Below, in pieces: positions 5,048-20,082 of a stretch of 24,056 nucleotides of DNA (positions are counted from its first letter, which is position 1; every line of letters starts with the position of its first letter). The translations under genes and the position numbers were made by a program. Under the pieces are notes generated by a model. That model was not told the DNA's origin. It saw only the letters and a program-made list of their open reading frames with translations, and did no database searches. The DNA is from a virus: positions 1-24,056 of IMG/VR virus record IMGVR_UViG_3300043449_000237; one strand, 5' to 3'.

Positions 5048-5063
5048 TAGTTGCTAACACGCG

Positions 5064-5114: not shown

Positions 5115-5118
5115 GACA

Positions 5119-5143
5119 GCCGGGAGAGACCGGCACCTTTTTT
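5119..5143 (+). terminator. Intrinsic (rho-independent) terminator after the capsid gene
   Basis: GCCGG (5119-5123) pairs with CCGGC (5130-5134) around the loop GAGAGA, followed by ACC and six T residues (5138-5143). A three-pair extension GGT/ACC is possible with a bulge. The stem is short but GC-rich and the T-run is clear. It lies three bases before the next ATG, so readthrough must occur for downstream genes unless a separate promoter exists; none is apparent. Placement suggests partial termination that keeps capsid transcripts more abundant than tail transcripts. Confidence 0.7.
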
Positions 5144-5146
5144 ACT

Positions 5147-5491: not shown

Positions 5492-6696
5492 AGACCGTTC
5501 CGTTTAGCGATATTCTTGCTTCAGTGTGTCAGCTTGTTGGCTTGGATCGCACGACGCTAAACGATAAGGCATTTGGGGCGATCCGCGACTTCACTGGTCG
5601 CCGGCTGTCAGTGGTGTGGGACCGTGAGGAGTGGCCCGATGTGCAAAGATACATGTACACTTGGCCTGGCATGCCGGTTGAGTCGATTGAGTCTGGGCTG
5701 AACATTCTTGCCACAGAGACGAACGTGCCTCTGTCCACGGAAGACTCGGAAGACTTCTTCACCGAGAACGAGCTTAACACGAACACGACTCGGATTAACT
5801 TTGACACGAACTTCAAGCGCATCTATCTGCAAGACTTTTTGCATGACAGGTACAAACTTGGCACTGTAGGAGATTCTTACGCCAAGTTCTTAAACCCGTT
5901 TTATGGTTCAGTAGATGACGGTCCATTAACGTCTGTTGGCGAGAACCAATATAACTTCACTTATTCAACTGCGACCGACGAAATAGGTGAATATATCACA
6001 AACATCGTCATTGAGGCTGAATTTACCAACACAAACTATTTTACCTATTCCGGCCCGAACTCGCCCCTGACAACAAAGGTGCTGTTCATGGACAACCAGC
6101 AGTTGCTTATCCAGATTCCACAGGGATCACTGCAAGGCTTGGCTATCTACACGAACGACCCGCGTCAGACGACCAAGGCAATTCCGCTGCCGTTTATCGC
6201 GGAAGACTTTGCCGATCAGACGCCACAGAACTTCGGGGATGACGTGAACTACCTCCGCACGTTCAATACATCAAAGCAGTTTGTGCAGTATCGTCTGACG
6301 CCGCCGCGCATGTTTGGCGTGAAGTACGATCCAATTACAGCCTACACGGCTGGTTCACAGGTATACTTTGACTTGGGGCAGGGCAATGGCAACTACTACA
6401 TTGGCGACAAGACCAAGTTGAGCAACGGCAACTTTTTCTTTGCAAAGACGAACGTGTCTGCTGGGGTGACGCCGGCCAACCAGACCTCCGAGACTTGGCA
6501 GATCCTTGAGATTCCAGCCAGGTTTAGGGATTACCTAGCGAACTCAGTGTCCGCTGACTTCCTCAAGTCTGAAGGTCGCGCTGAAGAGGCTGTGGTGCTT
6601 GAGCAGTTGGCTGAAGCGGCGATTCAACAGCAGATTGACGTTCTCATCCGTCAGCAGGCACAGAATCAGCGTCTAAACATGGCTTACACCTACTAA
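5488..6696 (+). CDS. Putative head-to-tail adaptor/structural protein with carbohydrate-binding-like insertion (402 aa)
   Basis: The N-terminus (FSDILASVCQLVGLD and AIRDFTGRRLSVVWDREEWPD) resembles podovirus proteins that assemble onto the portal. The C-terminus (FRDYLANSVSADFLKSEGR followed by EEAVVLEQLAEAAI) is helical and matches the tail end I associate with such adaptors. Between them, residues about 280-340 contain YDPITAYTAGSQVYF, then GNYYIG, then TSETWQILEIP. That pattern (xYxxGxxVxF...YY...W) looks like a small CBM5/12-like or chitin-binding-like beta module inserted into the adaptor. The centre (about 5850-6060) is AT-rich, about 37% GC at 5941-6000. A head-tail connector role is inferred from position between capsid and fibre genes. 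Confidence 0.6.
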   Translation: MKTVPFSDILASVCQLVGLDRTTLNDKAFGAIRDFTGRRLSVVWDREEWPDVQRYMYTWPGMPVESIESGLNILATETNVPLSTEDSEDFFTENELNTNTTRINFDTNFKRIYLQDFLHDRYKLGTVGDSYAKFLNPFYGSVDDGPLTSVGENQYNFTYSTATDEIGEYITNIVIEAEFTNTNYFTYSGPNSPLTTKVLFMDNQQLLIQIPQGSLQGLAIYTNDPRQTTKAIPLPFIAEDFADQTPQNFGDDVNYLRTFNTSKQFVQYRLTPPRMFGVKYDPITAYTAGSQVYFDLGQGNGNYYIGDKTKLSNGNFFFAKTNVSAGVTPANQTSETWQILEIPARFRDYLANSVSADFLKSEGRAEEAVVLEQLAEAAIQQQIDVLIRQQAQNQRLNMAYTY

Positions 6697-6697
6697 G

Positions 6698-6895
6698 ATG
6701 ATTACCAGATTTCTAAGAAAGCGGAACAAGAACACTGCACTTGATGTAAACAAGAACTTTGCTCGCATTCAAGTCAGAGGCAATTCACAGACATTCCAGT
6801 ACAAGAAAATAGATATTCCAATATCTGCTCGTATCTTGACACAAGCGGATGATTTTCTTAATACTGAGGCTAGCGAGCGCATAAACATTGGTTAA
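6698..6895 (+). CDS. Small basic hypothetical protein (65 aa)
   Basis: The product is small and basic at its N-terminus (RFLRKRNKNTALDVNKNF), with a central beta-like stretch (RIQVRGNSQTFQYKKIDI) and a C-terminus rich in Ala, Asp and Glu. I recognise no family. It begins one base after the adaptor stop (TAAGATG) and ends two bases before the first fibre gene, so it is part of the same translational unit. The tight packing and sequence free of stops support a real gene; the role is unknown. Confidence 0.62.
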   Translation: MITRFLRKRNKNTALDVNKNFARIQVRGNSQTFQYKKIDIPISARILTQADDFLNTEASERINIG

Positions 6896-6897
6896 CC

Positions 6898-7767
6898 ATG
6901 AGCATCAAAATTTCCAATCTTCCAGCAGCCGTTGCTGTAAACAATGACGATATTATTCCAATTGTTCAGAATGGTACTACCAAGAAAGCAGCGGCATCGC
7001 TAGTGCGCCCCGTGTTTGGCACGGCGGCAGGCACAGTCTGCGAAGGTAACGACGTTCGCTTGAGTGATCCGCGCACTCCAATCGGTGCTGCAAGTGGTGA
7101 TCTTACCAACGAGTATCCTGGGCCGGCACTGACCACGACCGGCGTTGTTGCGTTGACCTACGGTGGAGCTGCACAGGTTGGCCAGTTCACAGTAGACGCC
7201 AAGGGGCGCATTACAAGTGCCGCTTCTGTGGCGATCACCCCGGCTGCCATCGGGGCGCTTTCGCTTGCGTCGCTCGGCGCAAATGTTTCGACGTTCCTTG
7301 CAACGCCATCAAGCGCAAACTTGGCTGCTGCGCTGACAGATGAAGTTGGTTCTGGCTCGGTTGTCTTTGCAAGTGGAGTCACTGGCTCCGGCTCGGCTGT
7401 TCTTGGCACCAGCCCAACAATTGGCAATCCTACAATCAACGGATATGTTGAAGGCAATACTGATCTTGGCACTGTTGGCGCATCTGCAACACTGAGCATT
7501 GCCAGCAGCACGGTGCTTACAGCCACGTTGACGGCTGGAACACAAACGACGTTCACGATGCCTGCTGTGTCTGCCGGAAAGGCGTTTACATTGTATCTCA
7601 AGCAGCCTGCTTCTGGAACTGTTGGTTCTGCTGTGTTCACTGGTGTAAAGTGGCAGAACGGCGGCGCACCAATCATCACTGAGCTTAACGGCAAGCTCGA
7701 CATTCTCCCGTTTGTATCAGACGGCGTAAACTGGTACGGTTCTTTTGCTCAAAACTTCGCATACTAA
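6898..7767 (+). CDS. Tail fibre protein 1 (289 aa)
   Basis: This appears to be a short trimeric fibre or spike protein. Residues 1-36 form an N-terminal module (KISNLPAA, then QNGTTKKAA) shared with the next gene and probably used for attachment to the tail. Next come standard fibre modules: GDLTNEYPGPAL, then FTVDAKGRITSA, then ALTDEVGSGSVVF followed by GTSPTIGNPTI, all widespread in phage fibres. The C-terminal third (TLTAGTQTTFTMP to VKWQNGGAPIITE and VNWYGSF) matches a beta-rich terminal domain common in environmental phage fibres. No enzymatic residues were seen. It ends three bases before the next fibre. Classification as a fibre is strong; the receptor is unknown. Confidence 0.82.
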   Translation: MSIKISNLPAAVAVNNDDIIPIVQNGTTKKAAASLVRPVFGTAAGTVCEGNDVRLSDPRTPIGAASGDLTNEYPGPALTTTGVVALTYGGAAQVGQFTVDAKGRITSAASVAITPAAIGALSLASLGANVSTFLATPSSANLAAALTDEVGSGSVVFASGVTGSGSAVLGTSPTIGNPTINGYVEGNTDLGTVGASATLSIASSTVLTATLTAGTQTTFTMPAVSAGKAFTLYLKQPASGTVGSAVFTGVKWQNGGAPIITELNGKLDILPFVSDGVNWYGSFAQNFAY

Positions 7768-7770
7768 GCT

Positions 7771-10700
7771 ATGTCTGACATCAAAATCTCTCAACTTCCA
7801 GTAGCTGGCATTGTCAATGATGCTGACATTGTTGTACTCAACCAGGGTGGTACGACAAAGACTGCCGCGAAGTCACTCATTGTTGCAGGCTTAACGAACA
7901 CGGCGCAGGTTTCTTCGCTGATCACTGAGCAAATCGCAGGCATTACTCCCGCAAGCATCGGGGCAATTTCGACTGACGCTGAGTCTGGATTTGCAACTAC
8001 AGATCAACTGGCTGCGATTACCCCAGCCTCGATTGGAGCGTTTGCCACAAGCGATGTTATTGGAATTTCCAACGGCGGCACCGGAGCAACCGACGCCGTC
8101 AGTGCGCTGGCAAATCTTGGCGGAATTACTTCCGCTCAAGTGCCTGCGTTTGATACCCAGCAGTTGAATGCTTATGTGCTCAAGGCTGGTTCAACGATGG
8201 ACGGTCGCCTCATCATGGCGGCAACCACGGATCAGGCCAAGGCTAACATTGGCGGCGCACTGATTGGCGCTGCTGCTCCAGCGTCTTCGATTGCAGGTGA
8301 CGTTTGGGTTAGCAACCAGAGCAAACTCACCTTCTCGCCATCAACTGGAACTGCTGTGACCGTTGCGGGGCTTTCCCAGCAAAACACATTCAGTCAACCG
8401 CAGACAATTGGCGTCTCTGGGCCATCTACTTCACTTGCAGTAAACCAAAGTGGCACAGGCCGTGCAGCTACGTTTGCGGCCAACTCTACGGCTCCTGCTG
8501 TTGCAATTACGCAGACTGGCACCGGTGCTGCGCTTTCGGTGGATAGCAAGGGAATCTTGTTCTACGATGGCTCGCTGCAGTCCACGGCAACGGGACACTA
8601 TCAAGCAAGACTTGCGTCCACGATCGATCACCCGGGCACGTCCAACACGGGCGTTACACCGAACACGTTTACATACCAGACGTTTGGCCTTCCGCAGTGT
8701 GATAACAGAAATATTGCACTAAACGATCTTCTTGTTTTTACAAGTCAGGCAGACCCAAAACAAAACGGGCCGTGGATTGTAACCACGATGAACACTGGAT
8801 CATCTGGTGCTGTGCTGACTCGCCCGACATGGTTCAGTGGATCTTCTGTAAAGCAGGGCATCACTCTTAATATTGGCGATGGAATAACTCGCTCCGGGCA
8901 AATCCTGAGTGTAACCAAGGCGACAAACGGACTGATTGCAGTTGGTGGCGACAACCTCACTGTTATTGTTGTCAACTACAACCAGAACACGGTTCAGCAG
9001 TCGCAGCTTTCCGGCCTTGCAACTACAGCACAACTTGGCGGCTACGCAACCACTTCGCAGATTGAAGGAATCGCCTTCACCTCACAGTTGTCTGGATTTG
9101 CCACAACCGATCAACTCAGCGGCTACGCAACCACAACCCAGCTTGACGCACTTCAACCTGCGTTGACATCTGCCGCGCCCCTCGCCATCTCGCAGGGTGG
9201 AACCGGAGCGACCACTGACATTGCCGCACTGGCAAACCTTGGTGCCTTGTCCGCGACTGCCGCTGCTGGCGGAGATTTGTCCGGTAACTACCCGAACCCA
9301 ACGGTCGCAAAGATTCAGGGATATTCAGTGTCTTCCAGCGCACCCACCAGTGGACAAGTATTGACTTGGGACGGGTCAGCCTGGGTGGCTACAGCTCCTG
9401 CTGCTGGAGGTTCTGGCGGCGGTGGAGTGCTGTTCTATCTTAATTATGGCACAAACCCAGATGCGCCTGCTCCATCTGGCTCAAAAGAACTTGGTCGTGT
9501 TGCTGAAGTTGCTCAGACATCCGTGCAGAGTGGCACGCTGCCTACTGGCGTGTGGACTGACATCGCTGGATTTGTTTCCGACACGCTGGACCCGAACCTT
9601 CAGGACATCCCGGCTGGCATCTTCGACTTCAACGTGTGGGCCAAGTCTGACGCAAACGCAAATGCGCCTACTTCCCTGCGTGTATTGATCAATAAGTGGG
9701 ACGGCACAACCTCGACGCTGATTGCCACATCTGGCACTGCGATTGCCAGCAACAACGGCACAACGGTTCAGACTGCCATCTCGGTAGTGATCCCGCAGAC
9801 CGACGTAACCCCGTCTGACAGGCTTTACATTGTGCTGCAAGCACAGCCTGCTGCAAGTGGACACACGATCACGGTGGACTTTGGCGACGGTACACCTTCG
9901 CACGTTCACACGACGATCCCGTCCGTGGGTGGCACGGGTGTAGTTAAGGTCATTAACGGCGTCCCACAGAACCCAGCGTCACTTATCACTGACTCGGACG
10001 TTTCGACTGCCGCGCCCCTTGCGCTGGATAAGGTGCAGATGGGTCAGGTGAGCGTTCTTGCCGGGGACGGCCTGACTGGTGGCGGAGATCTTTCAACGAG
10101 CCGCATTCTTGCTCTGGTTACTACCGGAGTCGCCGCCATCACCGCAGGATCATCCTCGGTTGTGCCTGTTATCACGACCAACATCTACGGTCAAATCACG
10201 GCACTCACGACGGAAGCCATCCCAGCAGGCACATCCGGCACTGTCACGGCTATTACAGCCGGCACGGGGCTCACAGGTGGCACCATCACGACAGACGGCA
10301 TCATTGCCCTTGAGACTGCTGGTCCAGGTGTGCTGACCAACGTAGGCTCCAGCGCAGCGGTGCCTGTTATCAGTGTGGACGCTTACGGTCGCATCAGCGC
10401 ACTTGAGACGGCCTCCTTGGCTGGGCTGGGTACAGTGACGAGTATCGCGATGACGAGCCAAGTGTCCGGCCTGTCCTTCTCGCCAACAACCGCAATCACT
10501 GACAATGGCACGTTCAACCTGACTGGTACGCTGGATATCTCCAACGGCGGGACAGGCGCAACGGACGCACCATCGGCGTTGAGCAACCTTGGCGGGATCA
10601 CCTCGGCGTCACTGAGTGGACTAGCGACAACGGATCAATTGGCTGGGTTGCAACCTGCGCTTACGACGGCTGCTCCGCTCGGCATCGAGCTTGGTGGCAC

Positions 10701-11679
10701 GGGCGCTACGACTGCACTTGCTGCGCTGACTGCGCTTGGCAACATGCACTTTGCTGGCGGATGGTCACAGACAAGCGTTGTGCTTGGCACAATGGACACT
10801 GGCGTCACACCGAATACGTTCACGGTAACAACCACTGGGGCACTATCTGTGGATGGTGGGTCTCCTGTTGCTGGAGATGTTTTAGTGCTTGTTAGTCAGC
10901 CAACCGGGTCTCAACATTTTGCTCGCGACAACGGACCGTGGATTGTAGTGAATCCTGGGGCGGTTGGCGTGCAGGCCACGCTTGTTCGTCCAGATTGGTT
11001 TAGTGGCATTGTAAAAACCGGCATATTGGTCAGCAACCAATACGGATCAAGCAGAACTGGAGTTACATATGCACTTCAGGGGCCAAACACTACAACGGTT
11101 AATAATTTTATTGATGTTGGCTCTGATGTAATCAGCGTAATTGCAGCTTACCAACGTGCATCTGGAGCCACACTTGGCACAAACACATTTGGCAGTCGTC
11201 AAACATACGCGGTTAACAACACGACACAAAACCCAATCAGCTTAAGTACAGCCGCTGCTGCACTTTTGTCAACCCGCCAGCTTGGCGCTCTTGAGTGGGA
11301 CAACACGCAGCTCTACATCACGGCATCGACTCAGTTCGCACTGCTCAATCGCAACCCGATTGCGACCGCAACAGTGCTTATCAACACGCAGACTGGCACG
11401 ACGTTCGCCCCTGCGCTGACTGACGCTGGAAGGCTGATCACACTTAGCAACGCCAGTGCAATCGCCGTCACAATTGCCGCTGATGCTACAACTGACTTCC
11501 CTGTTGGCACACAGCTTCTGCTGATGCAGCTTGGCGCGGGTCAGGTGACAGTGTCCGGGGCGGTTGGCGTGACGATTGTCAGCCGTAGCGGAACAAAAAC
11601 CGCTGGTCAATACGCACTCATTTCGCTAATCAAAGTGGCGGCAAATCAGTGGGTCGTTGGTGGCGATGCAACAACGTAA
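7771..11679 (+). CDS. Long modular tail fibre protein 2 (1302 aa)
   Basis: This is a long Ala/Thr/Gly-rich fibre built from repeated modules. Residues 1-37 repeat the N-terminal module of the preceding fibre (KISQLPVA, QGGTTKTAA). GGTGAT modules begin at residues 99, 473, 923 and 972. Two copies of a domain marked by GVTPNTF, NGPWIV and WFSG lie at about 277-407 and 991-1130. Six nine-residue repeats span 412-465. GDLSGNYPNPTV and QVLTWDGSAWV, around 500-545, are classic fibre linkers. Residues about 565-720 form a beta-sandwich-like domain with DIPAGIFDFNVWAKSD and HTTIPSVGG. The C-terminus has the LINTQTGTTFAPAL and PVGTQLLLMQLGAGQVTV type end. It probably forms the main trimeric adhesin. 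Start ATG 7771 follows TAAGCT with no Shine-Dalgarno. Confidence 0.88.
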   Translation: MSDIKISQLPVAGIVNDADIVVLNQGGTTKTAAKSLIVAGLTNTAQVSSLITEQIAGITPASIGAISTDAESGFATTDQLAAITPASIGAFATSDVIGISNGGTGATDAVSALANLGGITSAQVPAFDTQQLNAYVLKAGSTMDGRLIMAATTDQAKANIGGALIGAAAPASSIAGDVWVSNQSKLTFSPSTGTAVTVAGLSQQNTFSQPQTIGVSGPSTSLAVNQSGTGRAATFAANSTAPAVAITQTGTGAALSVDSKGILFYDGSLQSTATGHYQARLASTIDHPGTSNTGVTPNTFTYQTFGLPQCDNRNIALNDLLVFTSQADPKQNGPWIVTTMNTGSSGAVLTRPTWFSGSSVKQGITLNIGDGITRSGQILSVTKATNGLIAVGGDNLTVIVVNYNQNTVQQSQLSGLATTAQLGGYATTSQIEGIAFTSQLSGFATTDQLSGYATTTQLDALQPALTSAAPLAISQGGTGATTDIAALANLGALSATAAAGGDLSGNYPNPTVAKIQGYSVSSSAPTSGQVLTWDGSAWVATAPAAGGSGGGGVLFYLNYGTNPDAPAPSGSKELGRVAEVAQTSVQSGTLPTGVWTDIAGFVSDTLDPNLQDIPAGIFDFNVWAKSDANANAPTSLRVLINKWDGTTSTLIATSGTAIASNNGTTVQTAISVVIPQTDVTPSDRLYIVLQAQPAASGHTITVDFGDGTPSHVHTTIPSVGGTGVVKVINGVPQNPASLITDSDVSTAAPLALDKVQMGQVSVLAGDGLTGGGDLSTSRILALVTTGVAAITAGSSSVVPVITTNIYGQITALTTEAIPAGTSGTVTAITAGTGLTGGTITTDGIIALETAGPGVLTNVGSSAAVPVISVDAYGRISALETASLAGLGTVTSIAMTSQVSGLSFSPTTAITDNGTFNLTGTLDISNGGTGATDAPSALSNLGGITSASLSGLATTDQLAGLQPALTTAAPLGIELGGTGATTALAALTALGNMHFAGGWSQTSVVLGTMDTGVTPNTFTVTTTGALSVDGGSPVAGDVLVLVSQPTGSQHFARDNGPWIVVNPGAVGVQATLVRPDWFSGIVKTGILVSNQYGSSRTGVTYALQGPNTTTVNNFIDVGSDVISVIAAYQRASGATLGTNTFGSRQTYAVNNTTQNPISLSTAAAALLSTRQLGALEWDNTQLYITASTQFALLNRNPIATATVLINTQTGTTFAPALTDAGRLITLSNASAIAVTIAADATTDFPVGTQLLLMQLGAGQVTVSGAVGVTIVSRSGTKTAGQYALISLIKVAANQWVVGGDATT
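8599..8990 (+). repeat. Duplicated fibre domain, copy 1 (NGPWIV domain)
   Basis: In-frame copy within the 1302-aa fibre at residues about 277-407. It shares with copy 2 (10741-11160) the ordered motifs TGVTPNTF, DLLVFTSQ, NGPWIV, RPTWFSG and KQGI. Nucleotide identity is patchy while protein motifs are kept, so the duplication is old or was acquired twice. Borders are approximate. Confidence 0.7.
9004..9165 (+). repeat. Six tandem 27-bp (9-residue) repeats in fibre 2
   Basis: Residues 412-465 split exactly into six units of nine: QLSGLATTA, QLGGYATTS, QIEGIAFTS, QLSGFATTD, QLSGYATTT and a degenerate QLDALQPAL. The consensus is QLSGxATTx. A regular Q-L-x-G-x-A-T-T spacing suits a trimeric fibrous stalk. 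Related single units occur elsewhere in the same gene (SGFATTDQL near residue 72; SGLATTDQL near residue 947). Confidence 0.8.
10741..11160 (+). repeat. Duplicated fibre domain, copy 2 (NGPWIV domain)
   Basis: In-frame second copy within the 1302-aa fibre at residues about 991-1130, with TGVTPNTF, DVLVLVSQ, NGPWIV, RPDWFSG and KTGI in the same order as copy 1 at 8599-8990. It is preceded, like other modules, by a GGTGAT linker. Borders are approximate. Confidence 0.7.
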
Positions 11680-11682
11680 TTT

Positions 11683-13929
11683 ATGTTCTCTTCTATGTTA
11701 TCCTTACTAGGCAGTCTGAGAGGCGGGTCAAGTTTCATCACGAACTCACTTCGGTTTCGGTCGAGTGCGTCTGCCTACTTGAGCAGGACGTTTACGGCAA
11801 CGCCAACAACATATACGTTTAGTTTTTGGGTAAAACGCGGATCGATTGGAGTAGATCAAATAGTATTTGGTGCGCGCACGGCAGGAGTGGGAGGAGCATA
11901 TATAGGTTTTATCTCTGATAAATTGCGTTTTGCTCCCGGAAACCTAGCGGTAATTGACACAACCAGCGTATATAGAGATCCATCTGCATGGTATCATTTT
12001 GTTGTTAGTGTAATAAATAATGGAAATGTTGTTATATATTCCAATGGAATTCAAGTTCTTTCAACAAGCGCTGGGGCAAGTCCATATATATTTAGTAGTG
12101 CATTAACAAATACAATTGGCAGAAACGGTGATTCAGCATCATTTTATTTGGACGGCTACCTCACTGAGGTCCACTTCATCGACGGCCAGGCACTGACGCC
12201 AGCCTCGTTTGGCGCGATTGACTCGTCCACCGGCGTGTGGGCTCCGAGTCGCTACAGCGGCACTTACGGCACGAACGGATTCTACCTCAAGTTTGCCAAC
12301 ACATCGTCTGTGGCGGCGCTGGGCAATGATAGTTCGGGGAATAACAACACTTGGACGGTGAACAACGTATCGCTGACGGCTGGCGTGACGTACGACAGCA
12401 TGATCGACGTCCCGGTGAACTACAGTGACAGCGGGAATGGCAGGGGGAATTATGCAGTGCTGAATCCGTTGGATAAAGTAACTACAGCTACATTAGCCGC
12501 TGCAAATCTTGAAACTACGTCTGCTGCTGCCCAAAATATTATTGGCAGCATGTCAATGGATAGCGGCAGTTGGTATTGGGAAATTGCCTATAGCGCAGCA
12601 ACGGCATCTCAGCTTGTTGGTGTTTATAAGGCTGCTGCAACAACAGTTTCAGTCACTCCAACAACCAATGTAATTGGACTTCGATTTAATGCGGATACTG
12701 GCGCATTAGATTATACCGTCAATGGGTCAACATATACGTCGATTGCAACGGGCCTTACTGGAGGTGGATATTTCCCGTATGCTGGATCATTAACTAACGC
12801 AAAGGTTATTTACGCCAACTTCGGCCAACGCCCATTTGCCTACACGCCTCCTGCTGGCTTCCGCGCACTCAACACGAACAACCTGCCTACACCGTCCATC
12901 GTCAACGGAGCCAACTTCATGGCTGCTACGACGTACACGGGCAACGCTGCTGCACGGTCACTGTCGAATGCAGTAAACAACGTGTCATTCCAGCCTGATC
13001 TGGTGTGGATCAAGTCACGTACACCTGGAGCTACGAATCACGCTTTGTTCGACTCGTCACGTGGCGTCACAAAGTACCTGTCATCCAACACGACGACAGC
13101 CGAGACTACGCTTGCGCAGAGCTTAACGGCGCTCAACGCTGACGGCTTCAGCCTTGGTACGGACACGACACTGGTGAATGCTAGTGCAAACTCGTATGTG
13201 GCTTGGCAGTGGAAGGCTGGTGGCGCAGCAGTCAGCAACACACAGGGCACGATCACGTCACAGGTCAGCGCGAATACAACGGCTGGGTTTAGTGTGGTGA
13301 CATACACCAATCAATCAACTGGTGTTCAAACAGTTGGACACGGATTGGGAGTTGCCCCTAAAATGATAATTGTTAAATTTAGAGGCACAACATCAAATTG
13401 GTTTGTTTATCATTCTTCAATTGGAAACACAGGTGGAGTATTTTTAGATACAACCTCTGCAACAAATACAAATAGTACTTACTGGAACAATACCAGCCCA
13501 AGCTCATCTGTATTTACATTAGGAACTATTTGGAATAGTACAGCAACAGCAGCAGCCTACTGCTTTGCCGAAATCGCAGGCTTCAGTAAGTTTGGCAGCT
13601 ACACAGGCAATGGGTCTGCTGACGGGCCGTTTGTGTTCTGTGGGTTTAGGCCGAGGTTTGTGATGTTTAAAAGTTCTACTGGAGGAACCGTAGATCATAA
13701 CTGGGTTGTGTTTGATTCTAGCAGGGATACATCAAATCTTAGCGATTTAATTATTTCTCCAAACCTATCATCAATTGAAACCACAAAAGGCACTAGCTCA
13801 AATCCTTGTGACATATTATCAAATGGATTTAAAATAAGAGGAACTGGAGTTGCATCAAATACAAACGGGGCAACCTATATCTTCATGGCCTTTGCGGAAA
13901 TGCCCAGCAAGTACGCTCTAGCCCGCTAA
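11683..13929 (+). CDS. Lectin-like fibre/receptor-binding protein 3 (748 aa)
   Basis: The protein appears to be built from carbohydrate-recognition modules. Residues about 30-205 look like a LamG/concanavalin A-like domain (TYTFSFWVKRG, WYHFVVSV, FYLDGYLTEVHFIDGQ). Residues about 290-400 resemble a SPRY-like beta-sandwich (SGSWYWEIAYSA, IGLRFNADTGALDYTVNG, YFPYAGSL, VIYANFGQRPF). The rest contains repeated sections of a type I associate with phage DUF7483: FQPDLVWIKSR, HALFDSSRG, GLGVAPKMIIVKFR and FRPRFVMFKSS. The last repeat ends with YIFMAFAEMP. Base composition switches sharply between blocks: 15 of 60 G/C at 12001-12060 against 41 of 60 at 12181-12240. The gene starts four bases after the fibre-2 stop. 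A host-binding role is inferred from the modules and position. Confidence 0.8.
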   Translation: MFSSMLSLLGSLRGGSSFITNSLRFRSSASAYLSRTFTATPTTYTFSFWVKRGSIGVDQIVFGARTAGVGGAYIGFISDKLRFAPGNLAVIDTTSVYRDPSAWYHFVVSVINNGNVVIYSNGIQVLSTSAGASPYIFSSALTNTIGRNGDSASFYLDGYLTEVHFIDGQALTPASFGAIDSSTGVWAPSRYSGTYGTNGFYLKFANTSSVAALGNDSSGNNNTWTVNNVSLTAGVTYDSMIDVPVNYSDSGNGRGNYAVLNPLDKVTTATLAAANLETTSAAAQNIIGSMSMDSGSWYWEIAYSAATASQLVGVYKAAATTVSVTPTTNVIGLRFNADTGALDYTVNGSTYTSIATGLTGGGYFPYAGSLTNAKVIYANFGQRPFAYTPPAGFRALNTNNLPTPSIVNGANFMAATTYTGNAAARSLSNAVNNVSFQPDLVWIKSRTPGATNHALFDSSRGVTKYLSSNTTTAETTLAQSLTALNADGFSLGTDTTLVNASANSYVAWQWKAGGAAVSNTQGTITSQVSANTTAGFSVVTYTNQSTGVQTVGHGLGVAPKMIIVKFRGTTSNWFVYHSSIGNTGGVFLDTTSATNTNSTYWNNTSPSSSVFTLGTIWNSTATAAAYCFAEIAGFSKFGSYTGNGSADGPFVFCGFRPRFVMFKSSTGGTVDHNWVVFDSSRDTSNLSDLIISPNLSSIETTKGTSSNPCDILSNGFKIRGTGVASNTNGATYIFMAFAEMPSKYALAR

Positions 13930-13933
13930 CCTT

Positions 13934-14194
13934 ATGCCAAAGAGATCTGTATCACTATCCGTTGGCAGAGGCGAGAAGCTACCTGCGTCGAGGGGCGCAG
14001 GACTGACAGCCAAAGGTCGAGCCAAGTACAACAAGGCGACTGGTAGCAACCTCAAAGCTCCTGCACCTAGTCCCAAGACTAAGGCTGACGCTGGCCGTAA
14101 GAAGAGCTTCTGCGCTCGCATGGCAGGTGTGGTCGCCAAGGCTAAAGGCCCGGCAGAACGGGCTAAGGCAAGCATGAAACGCTGGAAGTGCTAA
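13934..14194 (+). CDS. Small basic conserved phage protein (DUF6321-like, 86 aa)
   Basis: The protein is Lys/Arg/Ala-rich. It carries GEKLPASRGAGLTAKGRAKY, then NKATGSNLKAPAP, then KKSFCARMAGVV and a C-terminal KAKGPAERAKASMKRWKC. I recognise this layout as a small family frequent in marine and freshwater phages, which I believe is called DUF6321; the number is from memory. No catalytic function is known to me. High positive charge would allow nucleic-acid contact, but this is inference. It starts four bases after the fibre-3 stop in the sequence TAACCTTATG. Confidence 0.82.
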   Translation: MPKRSVSLSVGRGEKLPASRGAGLTAKGRAKYNKATGSNLKAPAPSPKTKADAGRKKSFCARMAGVVAKAKGPAERAKASMKRWKC

Positions 14195-14198
14195 TCTT

Positions 14199-14378
14199 AT
14201 GGAACACATGATGGAAGTGGTGGCAAGCAAGGTATTGGAACAAGGATTTTCGGTATTTGTACTGGCCGTTGCCCTCTGGTATCTGCACGTTAAACTCACC
14301 AAGGTAGAGAACAAGATTACTGAATGCGAGCAAGACAGACTTAAACTTTGGGAGAAGATAGCTCAACTACACAACTGA
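14199..14378 (+). CDS. Single-helix membrane protein, BhlA/UviB-like putative holin component (59 aa)
   Basis: This 59-codon gene is easily missed because of its size. The N-terminus is short, then residues about 14-32 form one membrane helix (LEQGFSVFVLAVALWYLHV), followed by a charged helix with coiled-coil spacing (KLTKVENKITECEQDRLKL) to the end. This order matches BhlA/UviB-type holin-like proteins, which have an N-terminal membrane helix and a charged cytoplasmic tail. The next two genes are another small membrane protein and an endolysin, so a lysis role fits. It starts in the TAATCTTATG context right after the preceding stop. An alternative is an unrelated membrane accessory protein. 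Confidence 0.6.
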   Translation: MEHMMEVVASKVLEQGFSVFVLAVALWYLHVKLTKVENKITECEQDRLKLWEKIAQLHN

Positions 14379-14380
14379 TT

Positions 14381-14536
14381 ATGAAAGAGTACCTGAAACA
14401 ACCATCCACCTGGCTCGGCATCGTTAAACTCGGCACGGCTATCGGCCTGTACAGCACCGGCATTGGTGGCGCTGTAGCACAGGGCGTTATGGCAATCTTT
14501 GGCATTATTGACGTAATCCGCAACGAGAAACGGTGA
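14381..14536 (+). CDS. Putative holin (51 aa)
   Basis: The 51-residue protein opens with KEYLKQPSTWLGIVKLG and continues with a Gly/Ala-rich hydrophobic stretch (TAIGLYSTGIGGAVAQGVMA, then IFGIIDVI), ending in the basic NEKR. A PSTWxG start followed by one or two hydrophobic segments is a pattern I know from small phage holins encoded directly before endolysins. Holins form the membrane lesion that times lysis. I chose ATG 14381, two bases after the preceding stop, rather than the in-frame TTG at 14348, which would overlap the 59-aa gene. Its stop overlaps the endolysin start (GTGA). Confidence 0.62.
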   Translation: MKEYLKQPSTWLGIVKLGTAIGLYSTGIGGAVAQGVMAIFGIIDVIRNEKR

Positions 14537-15009
14537 TTGACGAGCGATCAGCCAAGCACATCTTGACACTGCTCCCTGAAGTACAGGGCGCATTTACGGC
14601 CTTCTTGCTCGATGCTAAAGAACTGGCGGCTAAAGACGGCTTGGACTACAAAGTCATCTGCGGCACTCGGTCTTGGGAAGAGCAGTCTGCACTGTACGCC
14701 AAGGGGCGCACTGCACCGGGACCAAAGGTGACCAATGCCAAGCCAGGATCATCGATGCACAACTTCGGACTCGCCATCGATTGCGGCGTGTTCAAGGGCA
14801 AAGTGTACATGGATGGCAGCACACCCGCTGACGCACAGATCGCTGATCTTATGCATAAACACGCCTCCACACTCTGCGCCAAACACAAGCTGCGTTGGGG
14901 CGGCAAATTCAAGAAGCTATACGATGCGCCTCATTTTGAGTATGATACTCCTTATTCTCTTGCTGATCTGCGTGTTCGCCGGGCCAAGGGACAATCCTTA
15001 ATCGCTTAA
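14533..15009 (+). CDS. Endolysin, M15-family peptidase (158 aa)
   Basis: This is a zinc peptidase of the M15 (VanY/L-Ala-D-Glu or D-Ala-D-Ala peptidase) type that cleaves peptidoglycan cross-links or stems at lysis. The signature S-x-x-H-x6-D is present as SSMHNFGLAID, giving H76 and D83 as zinc ligands. DAPHFEY near the end supplies H134 as the third ligand, with the D131 and E136 surroundings typical of the family. The length (158 aa) suits a single-domain endolysin without a cell-wall-binding domain. No signal peptide is present, so it needs a holin. The start is GTG 14533, overlapping the holin stop; the next in-frame ATG is codon 75, too late. The exact bond cleaved cannot be told from sequence alone. 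Confidence 0.92.
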   Translation: MIDERSAKHILTLLPEVQGAFTAFLLDAKELAAKDGLDYKVICGTRSWEEQSALYAKGRTAPGPKVTNAKPGSSMHNFGLAIDCGVFKGKVYMDGSTPADAQIADLMHKHASTLCAKHKLRWGGKFKKLYDAPHFEYDTPYSLADLRVRRAKGQSLIA

Positions 15010-15013
15010 TCTT

Positions 15014-15253
15014 ATGCCAAAGTCAATGAATGCAATGCTGGCCATCCTTGGTGGCCCTATGGGCGGCAAAAGCCGCTCCTGTCCTGAGTGCGACTCTCCT
15101 ATGGAGTCCGACGGCACCTGTTCCGAGTGCGGATACGGCGAAGAGGAGGAGTATGAGGAGGAAGGTGAAGATGACGGTCACATGGAGCGCATGGTTGAGA
15201 TCCGCGACGATCTCCAGCGTATTGTAGACAAGTTAAGCAAACTCATTTCCTAA
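15014..15253 (+). CDS. Four-cysteine zinc-ribbon-like acidic protein (79 aa)
   Basis: Two CxxC pairs (CPEC at 23-26 and CSEC at 36-39) suggest a small zinc ribbon. They are followed by a very acidic run (residues 43-54, mostly Glu and Asp) and a C-terminal amphipathic helix (HMERMVEIRDDLQRIVDKL). The N-terminus has MNAMLAILGGPMGGK. The function is unknown: such proteins can bind nucleic acid or partner proteins, and the acidic tract argues against plain DNA binding. It lies between endolysin and nozzle genes; its stop shares the A of the next ATG (TAATG). I am confident it is a gene, not of its role. Confidence 0.75.
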   Translation: MPKSMNAMLAILGGPMGGKSRSCPECDSPMESDGTCSECGYGEEEEYEEEGEDDGHMERMVEIRDDLQRIVDKLSKLIS

Positions 15254-17184
15254 TGGCACAAGAACTTCAAGCTGAAGGTGACGGCATGTTTATTGGCTTT
15301 GCCAGTAGGCTTGACCCTGCCAACTTGAAGCCCGGCATGCTACAGGCGAGCTTTAACACTCGTTTGCAGCGCGGCATTGCCCAGCCTCGAAAAGGCACAA
15401 AAAGGCTCACTGAGAATGACTTGATCGAGTTAACGATGGTTGGCTCGGGCTTGTACGTCGATGGCTCGGGGCGCGACAACATTGTGCTGGTTTTCACCGA
15501 CAGGATGTACCTATACAAGCCGGCACAGGGACCAGATCTTGAAGACTTGTTTGGGCCATACGAGTTTCCAGAGGGAAGGACAATCGAGGAGGGTGGCATT
15601 TGCGACGTAGTCACGGCACTCAATAAGATCTACATCTTCCGTGGGAAGTACGACAAGACGACGTTTGCCGCAACCGAGTCTAACCCTGACATTCTCGACA
15701 ACGCCACTGGCACAATCACGATTACGACCACACAGCCGCATGGGTATGCCACGGGCGACGAGGTCACCATCGGGCGCACAGACGGCTCAGACACGGCAGG
15801 ACAGGCTGTCACTGGCAGTTACGTCATCACGGTGACCGGCGCGAACAGCTTTACGTTTGAGTACGAGAACAACACCGGGGTCACTTACGCTACGCGGACC
15901 ACGCAGGCAGGCTGGACGGCTAGGCGCGGGAAGCCGCCGCTAATCTGGCAGGATGACCTGACGCCGATGACCTTTGCCCAGCAGAAGTTTGTCATCGATG
16001 GCACCACGGTAACTGGCGTCACCCAGTCCGTACCCTGCGCTGACTTTGGACTGTACTTCCAGAACCGGCTTATTCTTAAGTTTGGCGACTACCAGATGTT
16101 AGTCAGTGACATCTTAAGCGAGCAGTGCGACACGACGTTAAACAACTTTGTGGTCAACACTGGCGGGAACGACTCGATTGTAGGGGTGCTGCCGTGGGTG
16201 CAGGACCAGTTCTTGGTCTTTATGACCAACAGCATCTATGTTGTTTACGTCGAGACTGACAACTTTACCGCTGACTCGCCCCCAGGGGCGCAGAGCAGCA
16301 CGACAGTGGTGACAACCGAAATTGGCTGCTTGGCTAGACGGTCTATCGTCGCAGCCGGTCAGTTCGTGTTCTTCCTCTCAGCTAACGGCGTCCATATGCT
16401 GACGCCACAGCTTGATTTGAAGCTACTAGGCAACACGCTGCCACTGAGCGAACCGATTGCGGACTTCTTTGACAGCGTTAACTACAACGCCGTTCAAAAC
16501 TCGGTAGCGACCTACTATAACAATCGTTTCTACATTGCGATGCCCACTGGCACTGCAACGAGGAACGACAGGATTCTGGTCTACAACACGCTGAACCAAG
16601 CGTGGGAGTCGATTGACTATTATCCGACTGGGTTGTTCTCAGACAACTTGATCCTCTCAGCGTATATCAATCAACGCCGGTTGATGATGATCACCAACTT
16701 TGCTGGGGAAAACGAGTTTGGCGGCGTTTATTTGACCGAGGAGCAAACTGAGGGTGACCAGTTTAACACGTCCAACGCTACGCCCATTCTGCCGTTTAAC
16801 CTGTTCCCGCAGTCCACGCAGCAGGTTGAGTCTACATTGTATCCCGGCATACCCAACTTCACGCACATTCCGGCCTCTGTAAAGACTCGGGAATACACGT
16901 TTGGCGGGACTTCCGAGAAGCGGTACAGCAGGGGCGAGTTCAGCTTCAACAACGTGCAAAATGACTTTGTGCAGATTGACACGACGACTTACGACCCGGA
17001 TGCCACCGAGACGGTGCTTGAGTACAGCTTCAGCGGCACTACAGACGGGACGCTACGCCCGCGGATAGCAGCTCGGGGAACGTCGATTGCGTGTACCATA
17101 AGTTTCGTTATTGGAAGACCATCCTTGAAAAGTACGGCTGTTTATGCTATAGCAGCCAGCAGACCAATGATTTCGCAAGAATAA
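15253..17184 (+). CDS. Tail nozzle/stabilisation protein, beta-propeller-like (643 aa)
   Basis: The sequence has repeated short beta segments of the kind seen in podovirus tail nozzle or stabilisation proteins, for example YVDGSGRDNIVLVFTDRMYL, IYIFRGKYD, FGLYFQNRLILKFGDY, VQDQFLVFMTNSIYVV, GQFVFFLSANGVHML and YYNNRFYIAMP. These suggest propeller blades. Residues about 143-230 interrupt this with a Gly/Thr-rich domain (TTTQPHGYATGDEVTIGR, then GANSFTFEY), a module often inserted in phage tail proteins. Near the end, RPRIAARGTSIACTISF and GRPSLKSTAVYA fit the usual last strand. The protein would close the tail tube and hold DNA until ejection. It starts at a TAATG overlap and ends four bases before the collar fibre gene. 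No frameshift is needed. Confidence 0.75.
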   Translation: MAQELQAEGDGMFIGFASRLDPANLKPGMLQASFNTRLQRGIAQPRKGTKRLTENDLIELTMVGSGLYVDGSGRDNIVLVFTDRMYLYKPAQGPDLEDLFGPYEFPEGRTIEEGGICDVVTALNKIYIFRGKYDKTTFAATESNPDILDNATGTITITTTQPHGYATGDEVTIGRTDGSDTAGQAVTGSYVITVTGANSFTFEYENNTGVTYATRTTQAGWTARRGKPPLIWQDDLTPMTFAQQKFVIDGTTVTGVTQSVPCADFGLYFQNRLILKFGDYQMLVSDILSEQCDTTLNNFVVNTGGNDSIVGVLPWVQDQFLVFMTNSIYVVYVETDNFTADSPPGAQSSTTVVTTEIGCLARRSIVAAGQFVFFLSANGVHMLTPQLDLKLLGNTLPLSEPIADFFDSVNYNAVQNSVATYYNNRFYIAMPTGTATRNDRILVYNTLNQAWESIDYYPTGLFSDNLILSAYINQRRLMMITNFAGENEFGGVYLTEEQTEGDQFNTSNATPILPFNLFPQSTQQVESTLYPGIPNFTHIPASVKTREYTFGGTSEKRYSRGEFSFNNVQNDFVQIDTTTYDPDATETVLEYSFSGTTDGTLRPRIAARGTSIACTISFVIGRPSLKSTAVYAIAASRPMISQE

Positions 17185-17188
17185 CTTT

Positions 17189-17932
17189 ATGCCAGTTCAA
17201 CAGATTCAAAAAGGCACAAACTACGCGGATTTCCCGGGTGCAAACTCGCAGGTTACCGCAACGAACCTCAACAACCACGTTGATAACGCCGAACTGTTGC
17301 CTGGAGCCATCTTGGCGCAGCCTACCGCCACGCCTGAAGAGGCGGATTATATCCTAGCGGAACAGTCTGGGTCGCTTGTTAAGTATACCATTGAGTCTGT
17401 TAAGACTCTGTTTTCCTCGCTTGTAGACGGTTTCTTGCAGACCACCGGCGGCACCATGACAGGTGCGCTCATTCTTAACAACAGCAACCCAGCCACGGCG
17501 GCTACAGCAGCCAGTAAAGGGTACGTTGATGCTACAGTAGGGGCATCTATCCTGCCGGGGCAGATTGTCATGTGGGGCACGTCTACGCCTCCGGCAGGCT
17601 GGCTTGAAATGAACGGACAATCCACGGCTGGCTATCCCAACCTTATCGCGTTATTTGGCACCAACCTTCCCGATTTACGAGGTGAGTTTGTCCGTGGGTG
17701 GAGTAACGACCGTACTACGGTGGATTATCCTCGGCAGATTCTGTCTGCTCAAGCGCAGGACGTTCAACCGCACACGCACAGTTATACTGTGACAGGCTCT
17801 GTAACATCTGGAAGCCAAGGCGGCACAGCCTCTGGACTTATTCCAAGTTCATCCGGTTCCACCACAGGTTCCACCGGCACCACCGAAACCCGTCCACGCA
17901 ATGTGGCGCTGATGTTCATCGTCAAAACCTAA
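17189..17932 (+). CDS. Tail fibre with phage tail-collar domain (247 aa)
   Basis: The C-terminal part (residues about 123-247) is a phage tail collar domain: LPGQIVMWGTSTPPAGW, EMNGQS, LPDLRGEFVRGWSND, an H-x-H pair in QPHTHSYT, and the terminal ETRPRNVALMFIVKT. These are the standard landmarks. Residues 1-60 (QKGTNYADFPGA, NLNNHVDNAELL, PGAILAQP) form an attachment module often seen in environmental phages. Residues 75-115 include TTGGTMTGALILNN and ATAASKGYVDA, common fibre linkers. A Ser/Gly/Thr-rich loop (about 205-232) lies inside the collar part. The protein probably forms a short fibre or tip. It starts four bases after the nozzle stop (TAACTTTATG). Confidence 0.88.
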   Translation: MPVQQIQKGTNYADFPGANSQVTATNLNNHVDNAELLPGAILAQPTATPEEADYILAEQSGSLVKYTIESVKTLFSSLVDGFLQTTGGTMTGALILNNSNPATAATAASKGYVDATVGASILPGQIVMWGTSTPPAGWLEMNGQSTAGYPNLIALFGTNLPDLRGEFVRGWSNDRTTVDYPRQILSAQAQDVQPHTHSYTVTGSVTSGSQGGTASGLIPSSSGSTTGSTGTTETRPRNVALMFIVKT

Positions 17933-18330
17933 TGACCGTCAACGAATGGGAACAACTTGTCGATACGCTATATGAACAGTGCCGAAACCATTTACAGCTT
18001 CTGGGACAGGTATCCCGAAATGACGTTGATGGCTACCTTAGTTTTTACGGCGTCCATGACAGTATTTATGTGGCTTGCCGCGACGGCGTCATCACCGGCA
18101 TCTCGACTACACATCCGGGCGTTAGCGATTTTAATTGGAAGTGGCGCAGGCAGGACGGCCTCTGGACAATTCATATGGCTTGGGCAAGCGAGCCGGCAGC
18201 AGTCGCAGACATGTTCAACCAGTTCTTTGCACGCAAATCACCGATCACACAAGTGTGGGCATGGAGACACGATCATGCCGTCCCAATTACCCCTAAGAAA
18301 CTAGAAAGACTTTTATATGGGAGGAAGTAA
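17932..18330 (+). CDS. Hypothetical protein, possible internal virion protein A analogue (132 aa)
   Basis: I do not recognise the family with certainty. The compact sequence has a beta-rich centre (YGVHDSIYVACRDGVITGIS), then FNWKWRRQDGLWTIHMAWA and a C-terminal helix with ITPKKLERLLYGRK. Its size, and its place just before the long internal proteins, resemble the small acetyltransferase-fold protein at the start of the core cluster in T7-like phages (gp13, about 138 aa). That similarity is an impression, not an alignment. The start overlaps the collar gene (TAATG), and the 3' end overlaps the next gene by 14 bases. Confidence 0.6.
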   Translation: MTVNEWEQLVDTLYEQCRNHLQLLGQVSRNDVDGYLSFYGVHDSIYVACRDGVITGISTTHPGVSDFNWKWRRQDGLWTIHMAWASEPAAVADMFNQFFARKSPITQVWAWRHDHAVPITPKKLERLLYGRK

Positions 18331-19405
18331 AACCCAAGTTGTACAACCACCAGCGGCTCCTAATTACCAAGAGTCGATGCGATCCATTCTGCAAGCGCAG
18401 GTGGAGATGGCTCCACAGGTGTACGCTAGTGAGGAGATCTATCAGCCTAAGTATCAAGCTCTTCAAGACCGGATTGCCAAGCAGGCTGCTGAAAGCCAGA
18501 TTGCCCTGTATCGTGGTCTTCAGCCGTCTTACTCTGCGCTAGAAGAGCAGTACATGAAAGACCAGCAGGCGGCGCAGTTGCGCGGCTTGCAGGAGCGTGC
18601 GCCAGGGTACGTTCAAGCGTTTCAAGAAGCTCAAGGTGTTGGCGGGATCAACCAAGCTCTCCAGCAGTACACCCAGCAGAAGCTCGGCGCATTACAGGCC
18701 GACGGCACGATGTTGTCCCCGCAAGAACAACGCGCCATCGAGCAGCAGACCCGTGCAGGCTTTGCGGCTCGGGGAACGGCGCTTGGCGGGCAGTCCAACC
18801 TTGCCGAGGTGCTCAACCGCTACAACGCTCGTCAGGCTCGGGAACAGCAGCTTGTCGCTCTTGGCACTGGCCTCGGCGGTTACTTCGCACAACAGTCTGC
18901 GCCTGCACTGACTTCGTTCTACCAACAGCCGATGTACGCAGGTTCATTCGGTGGTCAGGCCGCACAGAACGCGATGATGGCGCAGCAGCAGGCTGGTCCA
19001 CAGTACTTCAACCCAGAGTCACCTACCGGCATGGGCTCGATCTACGGTGCATACAACGCGCAGATGCAGCTTGCGGCTGGCTCGCAACAGGCTGCTGCGG
19101 CAAGAAGTGCTGGACGGCAGGGAATGCTTGGGTCGCTGGGCGGCGCAGGGATTGGTGCGGCTGGGATGCTTGGGGCCGCTAAAATTGCTGGTCCGGCATT
19201 GTTTATGTGCTGGGTAGCCCGTGAGGTCTATGGCAACACTAACCCAGACTGGCTAACCTTCCGCGAGTGGATGTTGAACGAAGCTCCAAGCTGGCTCAGG
19301 GCCGTGTACATTAAGTACGGTGAATGGTTTGCGGGCTTTATTAAAGATAAACCTCGCGTAAAATGGTTTATCAAGTTGTGGATGGACTCAAAGATTAAAC
19401 GGTAA
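18317..19405 (+). CDS. Putative internal virion/ejection protein with CWVAREVYG C-terminal domain (362 aa)
   Basis: The first 260 residues are Gln/Ala-rich and helical (SILQAQVEMAPQVYASEE, ALQDRIAKQAAESQ, RAIEQQTRAGFAARG). A glycine-rich hydrophobic stretch (about 265-297, GMLGSLGGAGIGAAGMLGA) could cross or destabilise a membrane. From residue 298 a distinct domain begins: CWVAREVYG, WLTFREWMLNEAPSWL and a basic aromatic end. I know this short C-terminal domain from many environmental phage proteins, function unknown. Such a profile fits proteins carried inside the head and ejected with DNA. It starts inside the preceding gene (14-base overlap). The GGAGG just after the ATG (18321-18325) lies inside the coding region and is not its ribosome site. 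Confidence 0.68.
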   Translation: MGGSKTQVVQPPAAPNYQESMRSILQAQVEMAPQVYASEEIYQPKYQALQDRIAKQAAESQIALYRGLQPSYSALEEQYMKDQQAAQLRGLQERAPGYVQAFQEAQGVGGINQALQQYTQQKLGALQADGTMLSPQEQRAIEQQTRAGFAARGTALGGQSNLAEVLNRYNARQAREQQLVALGTGLGGYFAQQSAPALTSFYQQPMYAGSFGGQAAQNAMMAQQQAGPQYFNPESPTGMGSIYGAYNAQMQLAAGSQQAAAARSAGRQGMLGSLGGAGIGAAGMLGAAKIAGPALFMCWVAREVYGNTNPDWLTFREWMLNEAPSWLRAVYIKYGEWFAGFIKDKPRVKWFIKLWMDSKIKR

Positions 19406-19410
19406 CTCTT

Positions 19411-20082
19411 ATGGCAAGACCTCGTGAACTTTACAGTGGAGCAGCTCCTCAAGCGATGACCATGATGGGCGCTGGAATCGCAGACGCTTACGCTAATGTG
19501 GGCAGGATCGAAGGGCAGGGCATGCAGGCGTTGGGCCAGGGTATCGCGCAGGGGATTACGAGTGCGGCGTCGTCAGTGGCAAGCTACATGAAGGAGGCGA
19601 AGCAGCTTGAGGCGCAGAATAAGTCCTACGAGAACTTCCTCAACAACAAGGTTGGGCAATCAATGCTTGGTTACACGCCACAGGATTCACAGCAACTCAT
19701 TGAGCAAGCAAAAAAGATTTCCCTTGAGGGCGGCATTCGCGCAGGCAACGACTTCCTCAACTTGGCCGTTGGCGGAAGGTTGCAACAGCAGAATAAGTTG
19801 CAGCTGGTTAAAGAAGAGGCTGCTGGTAGGGCTTTGGTTGCACAAAAGCCGCCACTAGACTTGAGTGGAGTTGGTGCAGCACTTGATTCCATATGGAATC
19901 CTAAATCAACAGGATCGCAAACTTCCGCAGCGGCTGGGCAAGTAGATCAATCAATGCAAGGACAGGACACCACGCAGCCCGCAACAGATCTTGCGGATTT
20001 TATAAGACGGCGTCTTGGCTACATCCCCAGCGTAATTCCACCTGCGCTGATGGCTGAATACAATGCACTAACAGGTCGATAA
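19411..20082 (+). CDS. Putative internal virion protein (223 aa)
   Basis: This is an Ala/Gln/Gly-rich protein with an N-terminal Gly/Met/Ala segment (MTMMGAGIADAYANVGRIEG, MQALGQGIAQGITSAAS), then a helical charged middle (YMKEAKQLEAQNKSYENFL), a polar Ser/Gln/Thr linker (about 170-195) and a short ordered C-terminus (FIRRRLGYIPSVIPPALM). I recognise no named family. The pattern and place in a row of similar genes suggest part of the ejection apparatus. It starts in the context TAACTCTTATG, with no Shine-Dalgarno site. Confidence 0.62.
   Translation: MARPRELYSGAAPQAMTMMGAGIADAYANVGRIEGQGMQALGQGIAQGITSAASSVASYMKEAKQLEAQNKSYENFLNNKVGQSMLGYTPQDSQQLIEQAKKISLEGGIRAGNDFLNLAVGGRLQQQNKLQLVKEEAAGRALVAQKPPLDLSGVGAALDSIWNPKSTGSQTSAAAGQVDQSMQGQDTTQPATDLADFIRRRLGYIPSVIPPALMAEYNALTGR

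Follow-up and report, generated by a model that had tools for sequence, protein, structure and literature searches.

Four AT-rich, exchangeable cassettes within a conserved frame: composition blocks in a candidate receptor-binding protein of an uncultured phage

In the tail fibres and spikes of phages, protein fragments are shuffled, including in recent events between distant phages, as described in the main text of Smug et al. (2023, PMC10684548), which does not contain the terms lectin, laminin or GC content. In natural phage populations, host-recognition genes, including lectin-like ones, vary between phages that are near-identical elsewhere, and the variants recur in changing combinations, as two reports describe (PMC3909814, PMC7468147). 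The gene described here lies at 11683..13929 (plus strand) of the IMG/VR record IMGVR_UViG_3300043449_000237, a linear fragment of 24,056 bases from an uncultured virus of bacteria; this whole stretch is called the window (G000) below. The gene encodes a 748-aa structural protein, a candidate receptor-binding protein by its open frame, its match to PF24299, its PHROG label, an AlphaFold2 (AF2) model and structure comparisons with VIA-align. Five conserved, GC-richer frame segments alternate along it with four AT-rich cassettes. We consider it likely, with a probability of about 0.78, that the protein is a receptor-binding, fixed scaffold with four exchangeable slots, that its cassettes move by recombination, and that its GC blocks come from an AT-leaning pool.

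The segments, all on the plus strand, were numbered B1 to B9 from the 5' end. Frame B1 (11683..11790, aa 1–36) is conserved and GC-richer, with approximate borders taken from the identity profile. Cassette B2 (11791..12150, aa 37–156; G+C at third codon positions, GC3, about 0.2) covers most of the strands in the first half of a lectin-like domain, and frame B3 (12151..12453, aa 157–257; GC3 about 0.8) holds the second half and a linker. Cassette B4 (12454..12816, aa 258–378; GC3 about 0.31) makes up most of a SPRY-like domain, the end of which lies in frame B5 (12817..13290, aa 379–536; GC3 about 0.64) together with the first part of DUF7483. Cassettes B6 (13291..13557, aa 537–625; GC3 about 0.22) and B8 (13666..13875, aa 662–731; GC3 about 0.25) lie within DUF7483, separated by frame B7 (13558..13665, aa 626–661), a conserved anchor of 108 nt, and frame B9 (13876..13929, aa 732–748) closes the gene with the stop codon. 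In a profile built where two sequences resemble each other in the flanks but not in the cassette (42, 36, 12 and 56 pairs for B2, B4, B6 and B8), identity drops over a few codons at about aa 37–41, 156/157, 258–265, 378/379, 625/626, 662–664 and 731/732; of the cassette borders, the least sharp is that at the 5' end of B6 (about aa 537–545).

These comparisons rest on relatives drawn from IMG/VR, where a pattern search gave 320 matches, 300 of them encoding a relative; from these the best 80 loci, all IMG/VR contigs, were fetched. The full-length alignment took in 73 of the resulting 81 sequences (window included), namely those in which a single frame spans 650 codons or more, and eight short or interrupted ones (L044, L047, L063, L066, L068, L070, L074 and L075) were left out. 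All 73, near-duplicates included, entered the GC3-profile, per-block identity and pairwise-correlation analyses, the per-block identity list covering 45 relatives with the first, slightly different block borders. Removal of nine near-duplicates left 64 sequences, window included, for the borders, alleles, conservation test and regression. Background GC3 was usable in 71 of the 73 and 63 of the 64 genomes, the rest having too few background codons, and identity to the window at synonymous, four-fold degenerate (4-fold) sites was measured for 20 chosen relatives.

The original prediction had noted, from six hand counts of G/C (15, 41, 24, 32, 23 and 21 of 60), that composition alternates along an intact reading frame. 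The counts were exact on recount, the frame is open throughout and the GC3 blocks are sharp; as a refinement, the counted stretches 13321–13380 and 13741–13800 belong to two separate AT-rich segments with the short frame segment 13558–13665 between them. A sliding-window check of the kind named there gave GC3 values of 0.08 to 0.80 in 40-codon windows, a range matched by none of 500 permutations of codon order, and the ratio of GC3 variance to that of permuted codon order (6.65) exceeded that of each of the other 15 window genes tested. Two further genes exceeded all 500 permutations in range, 543–2648 (ratio 2.74) and 19411–20082 (ratio 5.43). From B1 to B9, observed GC3 was 0.60, 0.19, 0.79, 0.31, 0.64, 0.22, 0.54, 0.25 and 0.70 (z from -7.7 to +4.6), whereas GC3 expected from the amino acids, with codon frequencies taken from the rest of the window's genes, was flat (0.52–0.57 per block). 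Since the expectation is flat in every block, the residues do not account for the GC3 blocks, and amino-acid composition was ruled out as their source.

After smoothing, the window's GC3 profile correlates with the average profile of its relatives (r = 0.86), and GC3 follows conservation along the gene (r = 0.82). The composition pattern is therefore a family trait at fixed positions, strongest in closer relatives, and not a private recent event of this phage. It is set mainly by segment, residue conservation explaining little. Residues at least 90% conserved have, in the window, a GC3 of 0.30 at 46 cassette positions versus 0.73 at 101 frame positions, and codon choice for one and the same residue also differs in a 24-sequence close set, with GC3 of 0.86 in frames versus 0.35 in cassettes for Lys and 0.67 versus 0.11 for Ile. 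Within seven of the nine segments, window GC3 shows no significant dependence on conservation. For this test only window and close-set figures were used, as the part on distant relatives gave undefined values.

The frames and the cassettes assort differently among phages. Over 2628 pairs, the identities of frames B1, B3, B5, B7 and B9 covary (Spearman 0.34–0.73), whereas those of cassettes B2, B4, B6 and B8 are hardly correlated with one another (0.09–0.26). Identity in B4 is strongly two-peaked, with 2437 pairs below 50%, 105 at 80% or above and 86 between; pair identities in B2 and B8 are mostly below 60%, and those in B6 are more graded. At 75% identity the 64 sequences carry 55, 50, 47 and 58 alleles in B2, B4, B6 and B8, in 61 distinct combinations, and one B4 allele is common to 12 of the 64, the window included. 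Among 29 close sequences (406 pairs), 68 pairs share B4 and 70 share B6, with only 5 sharing both. The closest relative differs for each of six blocks searched separately. In tree tests on 17 of 22 taxa, those with all segments, no segment's data were compatible with the tree of another (72 of 72 comparisons rejected at p < 0.05 without correction for multiple testing; weakest p 0.049, for B4 data against the tree of B5), the cassette trees resting partly on alignments of unrelated alleles. Neither one closest relative over the full gene nor a composition following amino acids only, the outcomes that the original prediction had set against itself, was found. No close case of a cassette reused in another slot was seen among 133 weak cross-segment matches (131 B5-B6 and 2 B5-B8, with top identities of 39% and 42%).

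Exchange can also be followed in individual phages. The locus L028 is a sister of the window, with 91.9% nucleotide identity over 4956–8000, 94.0% over 14235–19113, and 83–89% 4-fold-site identity in 7 of the 8 flanking genes measured. All four of its slots differ from those of the window, B2, B4, B6 and B8 sharing 28, 31, 47 and 37% aa identity and 57, 17, 36 and 20% 4-fold identity, the latter on only 14, 18, 25 and 5 sites. Within 12817–14194, 4-fold identity to L028 is 48% in B5, 77% in B7, 57% in B9 and 52% in the small gene downstream, and returns to 89% in the endolysin-like gene; these low values indicate that a tract longer than the cassettes was probably also replaced between the two phages. 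The loci L002 and L017, 95% identical in nucleotides over their common 4.8-kb stretch, have B4 and B6 100% identical in aa, with 42% in B2 and 45% in B8. L012 shares 81% 4-fold identity with the window in B4, 37% in B5 and 56% in B3; its frames are AT-rich except B3, and its endolysin-like gene is also fairly close to that of the window (73%).

Twelve regions from complete genomes of cultured isolates were fetched and 11 pelagiphages compared (55 pairs), MEP301, which has a one-gene version, being left out. In these 11 (L289–L295 and L297–L300) the protein is split into two adjacent genes, one lectin/SPRY and one DUF7483-like, and in those listed an annotated tail-fibre gene precedes the lectin/SPRY gene, either immediately or separated from it by no more than three genes. 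Mean identity is 77% in B1, 69% in B3, 75 and 50% in two parts of B5, 73% in B7 and 77% in B9, and 37, 31, 44 and 40% in cassettes B2, B4, B6 and B8. HTVC011P and Greip are 88% alike in B4, with 40, 46 and 43% in B2, B6 and B8; HTVC031P and Skadi-1 are 96% alike in B2, with 37, 39 and 44% in B4, B6 and B8. The layout is thus the same in these AT-rich phages, in which whole-gene GC3 is 0.08–0.14 with almost no GC3 contrast. The second gene in Greip is annotated as a SprT-like protease, a doubtful label given the match to the DUF7483-like part.

The recombinational domain swapping claimed by the original prediction is thus borne out as swapping by the assortment, the sister phage, the relatives of single blocks, the trees and the isolates, but the GC pattern is not the scar of a recent exchange of this phage's own. 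That cassettes are exchanged is hardly in doubt, and closely similar fragments occur in otherwise dissimilar proteins, as in the mosaic receptor-binding proteins of phages.

The C-terminal part of the protein matches DUF7483 (PF24299) with 379.5 bits against a gathering cut-off of 27 (E 1.7e-113; aa 410–741, model positions 3–330 of 330). In the AF2 model (mean predicted local distance difference test score, pLDDT, 89.7), VIA-align matched aa 14–254 to a pentraxin/concanavalin-like lectin fold (4dqa, Z 20.8, 197 residues; pentraxin 3flp, Z 18.5, aa 15–247) and aa 256–400 to a SPRY (B30.2) fold (Ash2L SPRY, 4x8p, Z 17.2, 143 residues); neither the lectin-like nor the SPRY-like part had a Pfam sequence match up to E 1. 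The GC blocks had been expected to follow domain borders roughly. Their borders instead fall within the lectin-like domain and DUF7483, B2 being flanked on both sides by frame strands of the lectin-like domain and B6 and B8 being parts of DUF7483, so that in the predicted structure swapping is mostly sub-domain and only B4, which nearly equals the SPRY-like domain, comes close to an exception. The PHROG label of the gene is virion structural/tail fiber protein. The product is most likely a virion surface protein, a receptor-binding tip beside the tail fibre, and from the lectin-like folds, the fibre-like neighbour, the PHROG labels and the pattern of variation we infer that it binds a host receptor, probably a surface glycan.

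Across phages the frame segments are conserved, and the cassettes come in many alleles, unrelated or only distantly related, whose assortment is largely independent of the other slots and of the backbone. In the mechanism that we propose, homologous recombination during co-infection would transfer cassettes, with crossovers in the conserved frames or at their edges, and a phage could replace its binding surfaces singly without disturbing the fold of the protein core. Frames would remain in a single phage lineage and come to match its codon usage; cassettes would pass between many phages, a good part of them AT-rich, with a turnover faster than codon amelioration. Frame GC3 rises with genome GC3 with a slope of 1.04 (95% interval 0.80–1.29) and cassette GC3 with a slope of 0.50 (0.32–0.72; difference 0.31–0.77) in 63 genomes that are not phylogenetically independent, and the eight best B6 loci lie on seven AT-rich contigs (GC3 0.17–0.41 versus 0.55 in the window). 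An AT-leaning mixed pool, the source of which we infer, probably accounts for the cassette composition. The chief alternative is that cassettes are AT-rich through a local force, such as mutation, selection on mRNA or codons, or GC-biased conversion raising the frames, and not through their origin. All 12 copies of the common B4 allele have a GC3 of 0.25–0.32, although their 4-fold identity to the window is 52–90% (9 of the 11 other copies measured); simple amelioration predicts some rise in such diverged copies, and its absence leaves room for such a force. Frames exceed cassettes in GC3 in 62 of 63 genomes, and B3 averages 0.13 above genome GC3, falling below it in only 9 of 71 genomes, but the other frames average genome level (-0.05 to +0.03). 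A local force also fits poorly with the GC-rich loci L043 and L036, whose cassettes lie near the genome level (0.61–0.69 with a background of 0.65, and 0.48–0.69 with 0.60), with a widely shared B6 allele at GC3 0.39–0.63, and with the small part played by residue conservation, and we consider it rather unlikely. Contrary to what the original prediction had assumed, the composition is no general mark of swapping: a replaced or strongly diverged stretch of the upstream gene (8051–9250) is mostly not AT-rich, the shared B6 allele is near genome GC3, and in the pelagiphages the contrast nearly disappears.

The exchange itself could be an artefact if metagenome assembly had joined unrelated variants at the conserved frames. 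All 80 relatives of the first search are IMG/VR contigs, the window is a fragment of a virus record, and the 108 nt of frame B7 are shorter than typical short reads, but the same layout and single-cassette sharing occur in the complete genomes of the cultured pelagiphages, which shows that chimerism is not the cause. Frame DNA is also just 51–93% identical to the window in B3 and 54–91% in B5 (45 relatives listed), and the swapped partners L002 and L017 bear different dataset numbers. We therefore rejected assembly chimeras as a very improbable source. Still less probable is that variable loops gained AT-ending codons in place, through amino-acid composition or relaxed constraint and with no exchange. 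The correlation of GC3 with conservation along the gene, weakly present within B4 and B6, would agree with this, but the flat expected GC3 and the seven segments without significant dependence on conservation do not, and the sharing of near-identical cassettes by diverged proteins, together with different cassettes in near-identical phages, refutes it. A diversity-generating retroelement or other targeted mutator, which the several variable segments in a lectin-like surface protein might bring to mind, is, judged by the pattern of variation in this fragment and its relatives, the remotest of these explanations; the alleles differ over 70–120 codons and near-identical ones recur in different phages, which is exchange and not point mutagenesis. 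Several observations weigh against a scaffold with four slots filled from an AT-leaning pool. Besides the constant GC3 of the common B4 allele, single relatives correlate with the GC3 profile of the window anywhere from -0.20 to 0.86, and GC3 climbs slightly towards more conserved residues in B4 (rho 0.23) and B6 (rho 0.29). Assortment is not fully free: B8 correlates with the neighbouring frame B7 at 0.51, and all 6 close-set pairs with a common B8 also share B6. Of B2, B4 and B6, the cassettes tested, only B6 has more similar flanking frames in pairs that share it, so that hitchhiking of flanks with a shared cassette was seen for B6 and not for B2 and B4. Conservation of the second B5 part in the isolates (50%) barely exceeds that of B6 (44%). 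The closest relatives of B2 do not come from AT-rich genomes (GC3 0.36–0.56 among the top ten), and frames are not always genome-like, those from B3 to B9 having GC3 of 0.45–0.66 in L052 and L062 against a background of 0.25. These two loci are near-identical, and their gene, at 6001–8337, looks recently acquired as a whole.

DNA just upstream of B4 (12373–12462) shows unusually high conservation of synonymous sites within the close set, with a codon identity of 0.67–0.80 where 0.40–0.48 was expected, and in the nearest 15 codons 4-fold identity is 0.82 even in pairs not sharing B4. This stretch may be a recombination joint, a role for which gene-wide support is weak. A rise in synonymous conservation near cassette edges is slight and confined to one side (rho -0.18 and p 0.025 on the upstream side of 5' edges; rho 0.14 and p 0.08 on the downstream side of 3' edges) and shows no relation to distance from the nearest edge (rho 0.00), and edge conservation was not used as evidence.

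Besides this gene, the window encodes a portal and a capsid of the SU10 type (PF23899 and PF17236) as well as a tail protein of the collar type. The gene sits between a fibre-like gene of 1302 aa (7771..11679, plus strand, by its PHROG label) and a small gene (13934–14194), after which comes the PHROG-labelled endolysin-like gene. The fibre-like gene is itself a mosaic relative to L028: 8051–9250 is replaced or strongly diverged (GC 0.45–0.61), about 10110–10640 is largely absent and 11051–11200 is diverged. A second compositional anomaly is formed by the gene 19411–20082, with the GC3 variance ratio given above, and by a drop to GC of about 0.36–0.37 at 20701–21300. Among the 80 loci, many of which stop short of that region, a relative of 19411–20082 occurs in only two and one of 20086–21402 in none.

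Megablast of the window against 50,697 phage records gave no match, hence no close cultured relative was found, and the capsid is 29% identical to its best-listed match. With tblastn at E 1e-5 against the same records, B2 had one partial match, B6 matched 17 records and frame B5 59, and B4 had none. In a bacterial and archaeal genome collection, 1 relative was found in 16 pattern matches at this sensitivity (L288, 48%), on a contig binned with an uncultured Burkholderiales; it is possibly a phage contig and a faint hint of the host.

With these data, the variable parts of a widespread, little-studied protein of aquatic phages have definite borders. The layout suggests that specificity could change slot by slot, multiplying host-range variants combinatorially, and, if cassettes do come from a pool, then within a single gene the frame would be the phage's own and the cassettes would be the pool's. 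Which slot sets host choice, and whether sub-domain gene flow outruns codon amelioration, can now be tested. The broader idea, that a four-slot adhesin scaffold is common to aquatic phages of unrelated hosts and that a common, largely AT-rich pool of sub-domain cassettes passes between phage lineages faster than amelioration, stands at about even odds. An abrupt change of GC within a phage gene may be inherited with the family and is no proof of a recent event in that genome.

The proteins of HTVC011P, HTVC021P, Greip, Skadi-1 and other pelagiphages are the nearest described counterparts considered here, being homologous over most of their length, with the same layout and a position downstream of a tail-fibre gene; unlike the protein of the window, they are encoded by two genes, AT-rich throughout and almost without composition blocks. 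In the T-even tail-fibre adhesin, recombination reportedly takes place between conserved motifs that alternate with variable segments, as Tetart and colleagues are said to have described in 1998. That adhesin is a different protein with a different fold, and unlike its motifs the frames described here are folded parts of the lectin-like, SPRY-like and DUF7483 domains. Literature searches on DUF7483, pelagiphage SPRY receptors and intragenic recombination found no account of a four-slot scaffold or of GC3 alternation. As in the mosaic receptor-binding proteins described in PMC10684548, fragments are shuffled between phages, but here four fixed slots assort largely independently, the cassettes are mostly sub-domain and they carry a composition signature. 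Metaviromic islands and module shuffling, as described in PMC3909814 and PMC7468147, concern whole genes, C-terminal ends, domain variants and read recruitment, whereas here the variation is located in four cassettes within a gene, bounded at the same places among relatives. Mosaic receptor-binding proteins and variable host-recognition modules are already well known; what appears to be new, as far as these searches go, is the four-slot layout and the GC3 alternation of this family.
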